Assembly: GCA_021781705.1 (NCBI GenBank)
Contig: JAJXWI010000009.1
Span: 1 to 61,138, forward strand
Direction of reading: 5' to 3'
Source: a bacterium
Lineage (GTDB): Bacteria; Verrucomicrobiota; Lentisphaeria; Victivallales; GWF2-38-69
Length of the DNA: 61,138 nt
Position numbers and translations under genes: made by a program. This document shows positions 13,780 through 61,138 of the stretch, piece after piece. Position 1 is the first letter of the stretch. Each line of letters starts with the position of its first letter. The notes under the pieces are model-generated. The model saw only the letters and a list, made by a program, of their open reading frames with translations, ran no database searches and was not told where the DNA came from.

Positions 13780-14160
13780 ACATTTTCCTTATATAATTCT
13801 GTATTTTAATCAAAAACTAAACCTTTTATACTACAATTCGAACCTGACTTATTCAATAACTAAATATACGTTTTATATCACTCCCGTCTCGCGGAGAGCG
13901 GAAATGGTTAAAAAATGTTTAATATAAAATGTTTCAAGAGATGGTATACCCTTTTAAGAAAAGCTTAACAAACAATTCTTTTATTATTCCTTTTCCCCAA
14001 CTAGTTATAGTATTGATTTTATTTGAGTGATGAAATAGAATGATGAATCGTTGTATGGGAATATTCACTATTACCCACTAGTATTTTAAGGAAGAACCTT
14101 TTTTATTTCCTGTCCTTCACGAAGGAACCACTTCAGAATGGGGTAAATAGAATATCATTT
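13780..14160. other. 381-base intergenic region between divergent genes
   Basis: It separates the minus-strand membrane protein from the plus-strand ABC importer and so should hold both promoters. Visible structures: a hairpin near 13882-13899 (ccgtctc-gcg-gagagcgg with one bulge) followed by ggaaatggtt, which resembles the flank of the hairpin at 55155-55178; and a small perfect hairpin tccttcacgaagga near 14113. No known riboswitch signature was found. Confidence 0.5.
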
Positions 14161-14926: not shown

Positions 14927-15913
14927 ATGCTAAAAAAATCTTCAATCATTTTAATATTAGTTATTATTGCTATCATTGGTGTCATTGTAATTATAAACAA
15001 GAATAAAACGCCTGCTGTAATTGGGAAGAAAACAATTACGATTGCAGATCCACGCCCCATATCAGCAGCTTTACTATATGTTGCAATAGAAAAAAATATT
15101 TTTGCCAAATTTGGGGTAGATGTCAAGTTGTTACCAGTGCAAACTGGAGACGAGGCTTTGAAGGCAATCGTTGGTAAAAGTGCTGATATTGCGATAGCTG
15201 CAGTTACACCTTATGCATTTTTGGCGATAAATAAACCAGAAATGAAAATTTTTGCGACTATTGCCGAAAGCAGCGATAGCCAAATAATAGCTAACAAAAG
15301 CAAAGGTATTACTAGTCCAACAGATTTAAGAGGTAAAAAAATTGGATACGCAAAAACAACAATTTCTGAATTAGGTTTAGAAAAAATTTTACAGGCAAAT
15401 GGCATGCAAAGAGGAGATGTCCAATGGATAAATTTAAAACCTCTAGTTATGCCGACAGCCTTAATGTCTGGGGAAATAGATGCGTATTCAGCCTGGGAGC
15501 CGCACTTAGCGAATGGAGCAAAAGTCCTTGGTGGTAAAGCTATAATTTTGACTGTGCCGAAAAATACCTACACTTGGCAGACGAACTTGGTTGCTGATGA
15601 GTCGTATATCAATAGCAACAAAGACACTCTAGAAAATTTTATTAAAGCTTTGATTGAAACTGAAAAATTCGTGTTAGAAAATAAGGAAGAATCTATCAAT
15701 ATTGCTGCTAACCATGTAAATATTCCAGCTGATATACTCAAAAGCATTTGGTCCAAATTTGAATTAAAAATAAATTTGCGGGACGACTTGAATGATATAA
15801 TAAAAGAAAACTTGATATGGGCAAACGATCGACGCGAAATTAAATCTAATGAACTACCTGATTCAACAACTCTCGTAAATAGGTCAATTTTGGGGTATGC
15901 AAAAAAATATTAA
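14927..15913 (+). CDS. ABC importer substrate-binding protein (NMT1/SsuA-like)
   Basis: About 328 residues from the ATG at 14927 (LKKSSIILILVIIAIIGVIVI). An ATG at 14894 is in frame but would overlap the ATPase gene and put charged residues before the signal. The N-terminus acts as a signal or membrane anchor; no lipobox is seen. The mature part begins TITIADPRPISAALLYVAIEKNIFAKFGVDV, the typical opening of NMT1/SsuA/ThiY-type binding proteins, followed by SGEIDAYSAWEPHL. Candidate ligands for the family are sulfonates, nitrate, or thiamin precursors; no choice can be made. The stop overlaps the permease start by 17 bases. Confidence 0.88.
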   Translation: MLKKSSIILILVIIAIIGVIVIINKNKTPAVIGKKTITIADPRPISAALLYVAIEKNIFAKFGVDVKLLPVQTGDEALKAIVGKSADIAIAAVTPYAFLAINKPEMKIFATIAESSDSQIIANKSKGITSPTDLRGKKIGYAKTTISELGLEKILQANGMQRGDVQWINLKPLVMPTALMSGEIDAYSAWEPHLANGAKVLGGKAIILTVPKNTYTWQTNLVADESYINSNKDTLENFIKALIETEKFVLENKEESINIAANHVNIPADILKSIWSKFELKINLRDDLNDIIKENLIWANDRREIKSNELPDSTTLVNRSILGYAKKY

Positions 15914-21042: not shown

Positions 21043-21382
21043 AAGATAAAGATTTAGCAATGAGTTCAAAGCGGAAATGTCGATGGAAGCACTTAAAGGA
21101 CAAAAGACACTGACACAACTTTCGATGGAATATTGGGTTCATCCGAATCAAATATCATTCTGGAAAAAGGAGCTTCCGGAGAAGGTTTCAAGATATCAGT
21201 TCTGCTTCAACTATTTGAGAAAGAACTCTTATAAGGGCGATAATACTCCAGCTGAATTGTTCAGAACAGCTTTACATAACTTCGACGATAATAGATACTT
21301 ATCTTTTTCCTCTGTTGACTTGGATGAATTGCTTGTTAAGCTTTTCTTAAAAGGGTATACCATGACTGTAAACAGTCCGTAA
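21043..21382 (+). pseudogene. IS3-family orfA remnant fused to an unknown tail
   Basis: After the terminus, frame FSNEFKAEMSMEALKGQ (no start codon; stop codons upstream) and the ORF from 21077 give KTLTQLSMEYWVHPNQISFWKKEL, the classic helix-turn-helix of IS3 orfA (normally EYGVHPNQI). From about residue 37 the ORF leaves that family and continues with FNYLRKNSYKGDNTPAELF, which looks like the C-terminal part of a different integrase-type transposase, to a TAA at 21380-21382. So it is a chimera of two element fragments and not a working gene. Confidence 0.6.
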
Positions 21383-55050: not shown

Positions 55051-55154
55051 AACGCAAAGCGCTGCATTTTCAAGAATAGCGTATAGCTGAGAGCCTCTTG
55101 CAAAACTCAAATACTAACGGTTTTGAAGAAGCAAGACGCTTCGTTTTCGAATCT

Positions 55155-55178
55155 GGAGGGTTCCGCTTTGTCGGAACC
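55155..55178. terminator. Hairpin between the aroA side and rnr; dispersed repeat copy
   Basis: Arms ggttccg (55159-55165) and cggaacc (55172-55178) with loop ctttgt, preceded by ggagg (55155-55159), are followed by atggttttatcatatttttt. It lies between converging genes, so it may end both. A minus-strand copy with compensating changes lies at 60862-60885. Confidence 0.6.
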
Positions 55179-55200
55179 GGAAATGGTTTTATCATATTTT

Positions 55201-57800: not shown

Positions 57801-58550
57801 GTGCGCCCAAAAGCATTGACTGAGAGTTTCTCCAAGGTTGGAGAAAAAAGAGACTTCAAAAAAGCACCTGAGAGCCATAAGCCTGCTCAAATGCCTGTCG
57901 AAAAACTTCAAAAAGTACCATTCAAGCAGTTAAGGAAAAGAGATGGGGAAATTGTAGATTTTGAGTCGCAAAGAATCAAGAGTGCAATTGACAAAGCATT
58001 AAGAGCAGCAGGAACAGCAAATAAAAAGATTGCTAATACTGTGTGTAATGATGTGCTGGAATCCCTTGAAAGCTACAGAGAGAAATTTGACGTGCCGGAT
58101 CTTGAACTGATTCAGGATCTCGTTGAAAATGCTTTTATTCGCAGAGGAATGACCAAAGCTGCAAAGGCTTTCATACTTTATCGTGCTCAACATGAGAACA
58201 TAAGGAAAAGCCGTGAAGTTCTAATGGACATTCAGGATTTGGTAGGAACTTACCTTGATAAAGATGACTGGAGAGTAAATGAAAATTCAAATGCCGGCTA
58301 TTCATTTGCAAGTTTATTAAATCATATAAGCGGATCGGTCGTTGCCAATTATACATTAGAGAATATTTATCCTAAAGAAATAGCAGAAGCTCATTCGGAT
58401 GGGGATTTTCATCTTCATGATTTGTCATGTGGAATTGTTGGTTATTGCGCCGGCTGGAGCCTGAGACTTCTTCTAATGGAAGGCTTCAAAGGAAGAGAGG
58501 GGCGTGCGAGTGCTGCGCCCGCTAGGCATTTTGACACAGCCCTTGGATAA
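57801..58550 (+). CDS. nrdD: Class III ribonucleotide reductase, N-terminal part (ATP cone) ending in TAA
   Basis: GTG start with AGAAGGAG seven bases upstream. About 249 residues: a basic lead, an ATP-cone domain (QLRKRDGEIVDFESQRIKSAI), then the start of the catalytic barrel (YSFASLLNHISGSVVANYTLENIYP, FHLHDLSC, PARHFDTALG). A TAA at 58548-58550 stops it just where the family has GQ(I/V)VNF; the Gln codon CAA would differ from TAA by one base. The same frame continues without a break to 59984. So this is one nrdD gene cut by a nonsense change, or a split enzyme with restart at GTG 58554. Confidence 0.9.
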   Translation: MRPKALTESFSKVGEKRDFKKAPESHKPAQMPVEKLQKVPFKQLRKRDGEIVDFESQRIKSAIDKALRAAGTANKKIANTVCNDVLESLESYREKFDVPDLELIQDLVENAFIRRGMTKAAKAFILYRAQHENIRKSREVLMDIQDLVGTYLDKDDWRVNENSNAGYSFASLLNHISGSVVANYTLENIYPKEIAEAHSDGDFHLHDLSCGIVGYCAGWSLRLLLMEGFKGREGRASAAPARHFDTALG

Positions 58551-58553
58551 ATC

Positions 58554-59984
58554 GTGAATTTTATGTGTACTCTTCAAACGGAGTGGGCAGGAGCTCAGGC
58601 TTTCAGTTCTTTTGATACTCTACTTGCGCCATTTGTGAGGGATGATAAGCTGACTTATAGAGAAGTTAAACAGTCAATACAACAGTTTGTTTTTGGTTTA
58701 AATATTGCGAGTCGTTGGGGGCAAACTCCATTTACCAACCTTACTTTCGATTGGGTTGTGCCTGAAGACTTGAAAAATACTCCGGTAATATTGGGGGGGG
58801 AAATACAGGAAGGCAAATATTATGGAGATTACCAGAGTGAAATGGATGTGATAAATAAAGCTTTTCTGGAAATTATGACCTCAGGTGATAGGGATGGAAG
58901 AATTTTCACTTTCCCAATTCCCACCTACAATATTACAGAACATTTTGACTGGAAGACAGATAATGCCAGACTGCTGTTTGAGGTAACAGGGAAGTACGGA
59001 TTGCCGTATTTTCAGAATTTTATAAAAAGTGATTTGAACCCCTGCGACGTAAGAAGTATGTGCTGCAGGCTCCAAATGGATATTCGGGAGTTAAGAAACA
59101 AGACAGGCGGATTATTTGGCGCAGGCGAACAGACTGGGTCAATTGGTGTTGTTACAATAAATCTTCCCAGAATTGGATATCTTGCAAAGACTGAAAAAGA
59201 ATTTTTTGCCCGTCTTAAAAATATCATGAATATGGCGAAAGATTCTCTGGAAATCAAAAGAAAAGCTGTTCAGAAATATCTTGATAATGATTTGCTCCCT
59301 TATACTAAAATTTACCTCCCGACGCTCAAAAATCATTTCAGCACTATCGGGCTTGTTGGAATGAATGAGGCGTGTTTGAATTTCATGGGATGCAGCATTG
59401 CGGATAAGTCTGGCAGAGAGTTTTCCTTGAAAGTCCTTGATTTTATGAGGGAGATAATTTCTGGTTATCAAGAGGAAACAGGGCATATCTATAATCTCGA
59501 AGCAACCCCGGCGGAGGGAACAAGTTACCGCCTTGCAAAAATAGATAAGAAAAAATACTCTGAAATAATTTCTGCCGGAGATTCAGACTGTTATTATACT
59601 AATTCTTCCCAACTGCCTGTCGGCTATACTGACGATCTTTTTGAAGCCCTTGACTTACAAGAAGCATTACAGCAAAAATATACAGGGGGAACAGTATTCC
59701 ACGGTTTTATAGGTGAGAGAATTGAAGATTCGGAACAAACAGCTGCGTTAGTAAAGAAAATCGCAGAGTCTTATAGGATTCCATATTTTACTATAAGCCC
59801 AACTTTTAGTATATGCCCTGTTCATGGCTACATTCCCGGAGAACACGATGAATGCCCAATGGCTCAATGTAAAATAAAATGCGAAATATACTCAAGAGTA
59901 GTAGGATATATGAGGCCTGTAAACAGTTGGAACAGAGGAAAGAAAGAGGAGTTTAAAGAGCGTAGAACCTATAATATTTTATGA
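58554..59984 (+). CDS. nrdD: Class III ribonucleotide reductase, catalytic C-terminal part
   Basis: In frame with the piece above, from GTG three bases after the TAA. About 476 residues: FMCTLQTEWAGAQAFSSFDTLLAPFV, FTFPIPTYNITEHFDW, the active-site Cys region DVRSMCCRL, and the C-terminus with a zinc ribbon (CPVHGYIPGEHDECP...C...C) and the glycyl-radical site in SRVVGYMRPVNSW. All catalytic elements remain; the Shine-Dalgarno before 58554 is poor. A run of eight G bases at 58793-58800 lies within it. NrdG overlaps its last four bases and activates it. Confidence 0.9.
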   Translation: MNFMCTLQTEWAGAQAFSSFDTLLAPFVRDDKLTYREVKQSIQQFVFGLNIASRWGQTPFTNLTFDWVVPEDLKNTPVILGGEIQEGKYYGDYQSEMDVINKAFLEIMTSGDRDGRIFTFPIPTYNITEHFDWKTDNARLLFEVTGKYGLPYFQNFIKSDLNPCDVRSMCCRLQMDIRELRNKTGGLFGAGEQTGSIGVVTINLPRIGYLAKTEKEFFARLKNIMNMAKDSLEIKRKAVQKYLDNDLLPYTKIYLPTLKNHFSTIGLVGMNEACLNFMGCSIADKSGREFSLKVLDFMREIISGYQEETGHIYNLEATPAEGTSYRLAKIDKKKYSEIISAGDSDCYYTNSSQLPVGYTDDLFEALDLQEALQQKYTGGTVFHGFIGERIEDSEQTAALVKKIAESYRIPYFTISPTFSICPVHGYIPGEHDECPMAQCKIKCEIYSRVVGYMRPVNSWNRGKKEEFKERRTYNIL

Positions 59985-60685
59985 ATATTCGCGGGTTAAC
60001 AAAATTTACGCTGATAGATTATCCAAAAAAAATAGCTTGTACAATTTTCGTGGGAGAGTGTAATTTTCTATGTCCTTATTGTCATAATCCATTTTTAGTC
60101 GCGAATAGTGAAAGTCAACCGCTAATACGAAATGATGATTTCTACAGGTTTTTAGATTCAAGAGTCGGGAAGATTGATGCTGTTGTAATAAGCGGTGGAG
60201 AGCCGACATTAAGGAAGGGACTCTTTAAGCTGGCTTCAGAAATAAAGAGGCGCGGGTTCCTTGTAAAATTGGATACAAATGGCTCAAGGCCAAGGGTAGT
60301 TAGGGAGCTTTATGAGAATGATTGCTTAGACTTTATTGGTTTAGACTATAAGGGACCGAAGGCAAAATATAATTTAATTAACGGAACAAATGAATTAGGA
60401 TTATACGAGAAAATTACTGAAACAATTTCATATGTGATATCTAAAAGCATAAGTTGTGATATAAGAACCACGGCACACAAAAATCTTCTTTCTGAACAGG
60501 ATATAGCTGCAATGAGGGCAGAACTTAGCGGGCTTGGAGTAAAAAACTGGACGCTTCAGCAGTTTAATCCGACTGAAGTAATGGATGAGGATTTGAAAAA
60601 TATCCCGACATATTCAGATACTGAACTTTTGGATATTGCTCAAAGTTTGCCACTCACAAAAGTTCGAAATATAAAAAATATTTAA
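59981..60685 (+). CDS. nrdG: Anaerobic ribonucleotide reductase activase
   Basis: 234 residues. Radical SAM motif CNFLCPYC (C-x3-C-x2-C) at about residues 25-32, followed by VISGGEPTLRKGL. It makes the glycyl radical on NrdD using SAM. The start codon overlaps the nrdD end by four bases, so they are translated together and share the B12-riboswitch control. Confidence 0.94.
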   Translation: MNIRGLTKFTLIDYPKKIACTIFVGECNFLCPYCHNPFLVANSESQPLIRNDDFYRFLDSRVGKIDAVVISGGEPTLRKGLFKLASEIKRRGFLVKLDTNGSRPRVVRELYENDCLDFIGLDYKGPKAKYNLINGTNELGLYEKITETISYVISKSISCDIRTTAHKNLLSEQDIAAMRAELSGLGVKNWTLQQFNPTEVMDEDLKNIPTYSDTELLDIAQSLPLTKVRNIKNI

Positions 60686-60738
60686 CCTCTTATTATTTTA
60701 CCAGCCAAAAGGAAACGTAAGAATTCAGCAACGCATGT

Positions 60739-60886
60739 GACGAGGCGAGCTTTTACCATGAGTTTCAACAAAGCCGTCTCGTCCGCATCCCTTACGGTTC
60801 TGTATGGAGGGACGCACTTTTACCATGCGTTTTAGCAAGGCCGTTGCGTCCGCATACGTTAGGCTCTGACAAAGCAGGGCCCTCCA
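60739..60886. repeat. Palindromic repeat cluster with covarying stems
   Basis: Two units 67 bases apart share the core cttttaccatg (60750-60760; 60817-60827) and a downstream gccgt...cgtccgcat. Stems differ with compensation: unit A ggcgag (60744-60749)/ctcgtc (60778-60783); unit B ggacgca (60810-60816)/tgcgtcc (60845-60851). An outer pair tggaggg (60805-60811)/ccctcca (60880-60886) encloses unit B. On the minus strand 60862-60885 is a copy of the hairpin at 55155-55178. No ORF is present here. Confidence 0.7.
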
Positions 60887-60936
60887 ACTCATTTTTCAGT
60901 ATTCGCTATTTGCACATAGTTTTGTGAATGTTTACT

Positions 60937-60970
60937 AGCAGCCTGTCGGACTTCGTCTCGACATCCTGCT
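60937..60970. repeat. Large imperfect stem-loop
   Basis: Arms agcag-cc-tgtcg (60937-60948) and cgaca-tc-ctgct (60959-60970) give ten of twelve pairs with a ten-base loop. Lies directly before the hairpin at 60974; part of the palindromic region after nrdG. Confidence 0.6.
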
Positions 60971-60973
60971 AAT

Positions 60974-60997
60974 AAAATTTCACCTGCGTGAAATTTT
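60974..60997. terminator. Perfect 10-bp hairpin with 4-base loop
   Basis: Arms aaaatttcac (60974-60983) and gtgaaatttt (60988-60997) around ctgc. With runs of A before and T after the core it can act as a terminator in both directions. It lies about 290 bases after nrdG. Confidence 0.6.
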
Positions 60998-61138
60998 GCA
61001 ATTTTCTCCACTGATACATATAAAATTTTAGTGTGAACTCTTGCTTTTAGCTCATAAAATGGTTTTTCCTGCGCATAAACAGGCGCTTTGCCTCTGTTAC
61101 GTACTGGCGGCCTGCATATTCATTAGATTGAATAAGCG
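60998..61138. other. Non-coding window end
   Basis: About 140 bases with no ORF and no clear structure beyond the neighbouring palindromes. Confidence 0.4.

Follow-up and report, generated by a model that had tools for sequence, protein, structure and literature searches.

The stretch of DNA analysed here, hereafter the window, is 61,138 nucleotides long, and its carbamoyl-phosphate synthase shares 73% identity with that of an uncultured Victivallales MAG and 71% with that of a Kiritimatiellae MAG (best 2 of 80 loci). Towards its right end an nrdG-type gene is followed by a cluster of hairpins, and a further hairpin of the same kind, preceded by a terminal repeat, is found ahead of that gene (Table 1). 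An nrdD-type anaerobic ribonucleotide reductase gene lies at 57801-59984 (+) and is interrupted by one in-frame TAA at 58548-58550; its two halves correspond to positions 3-205 and 208-682 of the 684 in PRK08270, and the split gene is a pseudogene, a case of recoding or an assembly error.

Table 1. Hairpins (REPs) and accompanying features of the window
Feature	Position	Strand	Anatomy	Model score
Left terminal inverted repeat GAGCCTCTTGCAAAACTC of REP-bearing MITE	55091..55108	+	perfect match	
Short-loop REP	55153..55182	+	foot GGAG 55155-55158; stem GGTTCCG/CGGAACC, 7/7 pairs; loop CTTTGT	R2, 40.4 bits, E 9.3e-5
nrdG-type anaerobic RNR activase gene	59981..60685	+	upstream of REP cluster, context only	TIGR02495, 170 bits (cut-off 131)
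Long-loop REP, degenerate	60736..60787	+	foot lost; stem AGGCGAG/CTCGTCC, 6/7 pairs; loop 60750-60777	R1, 61 bits, E 2.7e-12
Long-loop REP, intact	60803..60854	+	foot GGAG 60806-60809; stem GGACGCA/TGCGTCC, 7/7 pairs; loop 60817-60844, possible inner hairpin CCATGC/GCAAGG	R1, 79.4 bits, E 3.5e-17
Short-loop REP	60858..60887	-	foot GGAG 60885-60882; stem GGCCCTG/CAGAGCC, 6/7 pairs; loop CTTTGT	R2, 34.4 bits, E 0.0016

The units are built in the order T-GGAG, a 7-bp stem that starts with GG and ends with CC, a loop and usually a G. The short loop has 6 nt and the pattern CTNNGT (CTTTGT, CTCCGT, CTTCGT, CTACGT, CTTAGT and CTCTGT), and the long loop of 28 nt reads CTTTTACCATGCGTTTTAGCAAGGYYGT. The long loop corresponds to the ends CTTT and YGT of the short one with about 22 nt added between them, and both types of hairpin are one family. 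The added stretch could itself form an inner 5-bp hairpin (CCATGC/GCAAGG, one mismatch). An earlier note on this DNA had described two adjacent units with a common loop core, cttttaccatg, and stems changed on both sides together; the core is indeed located at 60750 and 60817 and the arms read GAG/CTC in one unit versus GCA/TGC in the other, the first unit being decayed and the second perfect. The match it had reported between the minus-strand hairpin at 60862-60885 and 55155-55178 also holds, with the same loop in both, and the changes from T-A to C-G and from C-G to T-A are genuine paired changes, a third differing position being mispaired in the 60862-60885 copy. This last hairpin is the tail-to-tail inverted partner of the intact long-loop unit, from which it is separated by 3 nt.

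Covariance models of both forms were run against the 2.58-Mb genome. At E ≤ 1 the long-loop model R1 (52 nt) gave 78 hits and the short-loop model R2 (30 nt) gave 74, from which core-only matches, duplicates of the other form and hits with E over 0.05 were removed, leaving 46 elements with a 28-nt loop and 53 with a 6-nt loop, training rows of both models included, or about 99 copies. BLAST found 43 places at E ≤ 1 and a covariance-model search 41 hits at E ≤ 0.01. Six contigs (408,431 bases, coding fraction 0.845) carry 33 of the copies, none of them inside an ORF; the ORFs were called mechanically, with a minimum length of 110 aa. The further copies and the intergenic bias on which the earlier note had made its reading depend are thus both found. 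A short coding ORF was set aside as an explanation, the copies being extragenic and mosaic. The exact long-loop core had no match in collections of genome contigs and viral contigs, from which records of this genome are possibly excluded, and a plasmid or phage origin was set aside as 60720-60900 matched neither.

Covariation was scored on an alignment (A1) of 30 rows selected via the loop core only, regardless of pairing, after 18 of 48 loop-core rows had been removed as CTTTAGCC/GTAG-type or decayed. The score of 0.339 compares with a shuffled mean of 0.151 and was reached by none of 500 shuffles nor by any slid control. The outer stem is paired in 85.7% of cells and double-sided changes occur at five of its seven pairs; since the dominant stem classes are few (GGTTCCG, GGACGAG, GGACGCA), the 52 cells overstate the number of independent compensations. 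The inner helix of the long loop is nearly invariant, so covariation neither supports nor excludes it. A second alignment (A2), of short hairpins chosen by pairing and hence biased, also shows compensated stems; it holds 31 rows, nine of the original 40 having been removed (those with 5-nt loops, a duplicate and three matches in unrelated genomes). Its foot is GGAG in all 31 rows, which had been pre-selected for a G[GTA]AG foot. CGTC was not found at the hairpin end in A1 or A2. In terms of arrangement, 40 neighbour pairs lie within 100 bp of each other, 18 of them tail-to-tail, 14 head-to-head and eight tandem, so that 32 of 40 are inverted, as adjacent copies in BIMEs or REPINs are, and 26 of those 32 combine the long with the short form.

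These are short, multicopy, extragenic palindromes with compensated stems, that is, REPs in the wider sense. As far as the available text of the sources goes, the described REP foot is GT(A/G)G (PMC2817692, PMC6006769), GTAG degenerates to GYAG, GYRG, GTRG and GTMG, CGTC is the other REP tag, and enterobacterial REP heterodimers have loops of unequal length (PMC3733652). With GTAG REPs and REPtrons, as presented in the accessible parts of PMC2817692, PMC3733652 and PMC8266576, the family shares a 5' tetranucleotide adjoining the stem, inverted dimers of long- and short-loop members, copies flanking RAYT genes and stems compensated within the family. It differs from them in its GGAG foot, in a distinct RAYT lineage, in stems that vary more than loops and in the 28-nt loop form, which is found strongly in its own genome only. 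The family works like REPs yet departs from the GTAG rule. CGTC-tagged REPs are likewise short tagged palindromes in inverted dimers, but in the text available from PMC3733652 they flank no transposase, whereas GGAG units flank RAYT genes. The ends of IS200/IS605 elements also are hairpins with a 5' guide tetranucleotide for Y1 HUH enzymes; unlike these, many GGAG copies lie away from any transposase gene.

The RAYT gene that the earlier note had suggested seeking is present, though with GTAG hairpins beside it. Indeed, the sole RAYT of the assembly, on contig C59 at position 15458, scores 85.2 bits with NF047646 (cut-off 80), carries HUH and Y motifs and has on both sides GTAG-footed hairpins with the loops CTTCGC, CTCCGC and CTCCGT; two further Y1 genes occur in the genome. 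The GTAG hairpin arrays are dense on either side of the gene (L033, 1166-2090), which stands next to and between genes that look, by eye, type I restriction-modification-like. Flanking of a RAYT by GGAG REPs is instead seen in relatives, and no RAYT of their GGAG-flanked lineage was found in this assembly. As its own RAYT belongs to the GTAG-flanked lineage, the cognate RAYT of the GGAG family has presumably been lost from the genome or is unassembled, and this missing enzyme is the chief weakness of the REP/RAYT reading.

In relatives, R2 has hits in 14 of the 137 genomes searched in the order (E ≤ 0.05; the counts per genome are lower bounds) and, at E ≤ 0.005, in 63 of the 387 searched in the phylum. 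Flanking hits were sought at 53 loci, most of them neighbourhoods of RAYT or Y1 genes, and five RAYTs in five genomes of the order (L175, L201, L205, L216 and L217) have R2 hits on both sides; L207 and L210, with hits about 1 kb from the RAYT, were left out of the five. These RAYTs form one lineage with the motif WD[RT]QLR, a profile of which finds E. coli TnpAREP (4er8) at 5.6e-12. The profile of the five (A4) is positive in 68 of the 387 phylum genomes and occurs together with R2 (63 positive) in 27 of them (odds ratio 5.2, p 1.5e-7). At the best 26 new lineage loci across the phylum, 17 show two or more GGAG hairpins and two show GTAG, namely L280 (a tie of GGAG and GTAG) and L290 (GTAG only); neither foot was seen at eight. 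A strong lineage RAYT was not found in nine of the 14 order genomes having R2 hits. Like the eight loci with neither foot, the GTAG locus L290 and the GTAG flanks of the own RAYT, this counts against the REP/RAYT reading.

A scan for repeated feet near 62 RAYT neighbourhoods, which weighs all 256 tetranucleotides and skips two duplicate neighbourhoods, ranks GGAG first (15), followed by TGGA (14), a shifted reading of GGAG, and GTAG (13). In the controls GGAG was called in none and GTAG in one of 184 pieces of the window's own genome, and neither in 158 other pieces. Some of the 15 neighbourhoods with GGAG fall into other RAYT groups, and in them a single base separates the foot from the stem (GGAG plus spacer: L055, L062, the NHYH group L068, L202, L214, L215, L219, L240, L245 and L252). 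NHYH-type RAYTs are a second GGAG-using group, their hairpins having GGAG and one spacer base. In relative G006 (L168, near 1560-1605) there is an independent long-loop REP with the stem GGGCATG/CATGCCC and another inner hairpin.

Residues W94, Q95, E100, H101 and R104 of E. coli TnpAREP are discussed for GTAG contact in PMC6006769. A foot could be called for 28 of the 62 RAYT neighbourhoods and not for the other 34; in the 28, the H101 equivalent is H with GTAG in 11 and with GGAG in none, and another residue with GGAG in 15 and with GTAG in two (Fisher 3.6e-6). Loci fetched once this rule was seen gave three H-GTAG, three non-H-GGAG and two non-H-GTAG cases (p 0.20). At the phylum lineage loci the residue could be read in 22 of 26 (T 17, R 4, V 1, H 0), and the exceptions to the rule are L262, L272 and L290. 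On a tree of 41 rows, which excludes 12 of the 26 phylum loci (no foot call, the tie, or a motif unreadable by script), the foot changes three times and three independent pairs result (sign test p 0.5). The residue is hence associated with the foot in the raw counts, an association that phylogenetic correction removes, and we treat the link as a hypothesis because the tree gives only three independent contrasts. A broader proposal, that GGAG REPs are a phylum-common tag class beside GTAG and CGTC, served by RAYTs with R, T or S at the H101 equivalent, and that the change of residue and guide base is an evolved specificity switch, seems to us to fall a little short of even odds.

Taken as a whole, the hairpins are probably REP-type elements arranged in BIMEs, the GGAG counterpart of GTAG REPs, served by the distinct WD[RT]QLR lineage of RAYTs. 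In such a system the RAYT, a Y1 HUH enzyme, would bind and cut the hairpins as single-stranded DNA, reading their unpaired parts, i.e. the 5' guide tetranucleotide GGAG and the loop CTNNGT; of the stem it would require no more than pairing. Reading of foot and loop only would explain why these are conserved and why stems vary by compensation. The lineage RAYT would thereby mobilise GGAG REPs, whose copies form inverted long-loop/short-loop pairs; the head-to-head pairs also hitch-hike in a MITE, probably of DDE type.

A less likely alternative, which we consider nevertheless the strongest of the competitors, is that the GTAG-lineage RAYT of this genome has a relaxed foot preference and now mobilises the GGAG elements. 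The loops of its own GTAG hairpins resemble those of the GGAG family (CTYYGY in common), the long-loop core CCATGCGTTTTAGCAAGG is also found in GTAG-footed copies elsewhere in the genome, hybrids included, and the assembly holds no other RAYT. However, E. coli tolerates no change of GTAG according to the text available from PMC8266576, and the RAYTs of the H101 type with a called foot have GTAG flanks in 11 of 11 cases.

It is improbable that the REPs are mere passengers, internal palindromes of a MITE that owes its movement to a DDE transposase, with no part for a RAYT. The head-to-head pairs sit inside units that are 112-155 bp long and have 18-nt terminal inverted repeats (GAGCCTCTTGCAAAACTC / GAGTTTTGCAATTACCTC). 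Eight of 15 units are bordered outside these ends by an exact direct repeat of 3 bp or more (seven of 4 bp and one of 5 bp), where shuffling gave a mean of 0.8 and reached eight in none of 2000 trials. The end pattern has 37 matches in the genome versus one for the reversed pattern; in the window the right end of the unit around the 55153 copy is not recognisable within four mismatches. Because of these terminal repeats and target duplications, which also mark MITEs of insertion sequences with DDE transposases, we infer a DDE transposase element as the likely parent. An autonomous parent, with its two ends about 1-2 kb apart on the same contig, was not found among the 37 matches, though a draft assembly can miss one. 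The MITE can be credited with much of the spread of the head-to-head pairs, and this is a point against the REP/RAYT reading. Nevertheless, terminal inverted repeats with target-site duplication are found for head-to-head units only, 18 tail-to-tail pairs and many single copies lie outside the MITE, and hairpins with this foot and loop are found on the flanks of RAYT genes in relatives. Similar ends were seen around REP pairs in relative G006 (L168, L173). Tail-to-tail pairs in L005, L006, L009 and L010 have a flank in common: GTAAGAGTTCAGTAAA precedes the long REP and may be another set of terminal repeats.

The earlier note had left REP elements, small mobile palindromes and structured RNA side by side; the REP reading stands, and for RNA neither an Rfam family nor a terminator-like site was found. 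Least probable of all is a hairpin kept for a role in transcripts (mRNA 3'-end stability or attenuation) with an incidental link to transposases, since the z scores from folding single strands (about -3 in four of the six stretches folded, -1.3 in a fifth and +0.3 on the minus strand of 60850-60895) and a weak excess of REP clusters between convergent genes (5 of 14 versus 30 of 197 gaps) are opposed by the lack of an Rfam match, of promoter-like sites and of intrinsic terminators (GC hairpin plus T run) in 60600-61138, by a gene context not common to the copies, which occur in both orientations, and by a foot that fits RAYT biology. A secondary role, by analogy with other REPs, might exist. 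Integron attC sites, considered at first as the sequence looked Treponema-like, were set aside once a protein search indicated Lentisphaeria/Verrucomicrobiota.

GGAG-tagged REPs look undescribed so far. The string GGAG is absent from the available running text, figures aside, of PMC3733652 and PMC8266576, as is GGAG at the start of a word from that of PMC6006769, PMC2817692 and PMC3686654; literature searches returned nothing on RAYT with Lentisphaerae or on REP with GGAG, and only PMC3733652 on RAYT with Verrucomicrobia. In the cited literature, to the extent of its available text, GTAG enzymes are the only ones whose recognition of REPs has been dissected. A natural GGAG class with a matched enzyme lineage would make guide specificity testable by comparison, and the conserved loop on a freely changing stem hints at what such an enzyme may read; a GTAG-based search would miss GGAG systems. 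Elsewhere in the window, a 49-nt inverted repeat (13930-13978 / 21326-21374) is 90% complementary over arms 7.3 kb apart.
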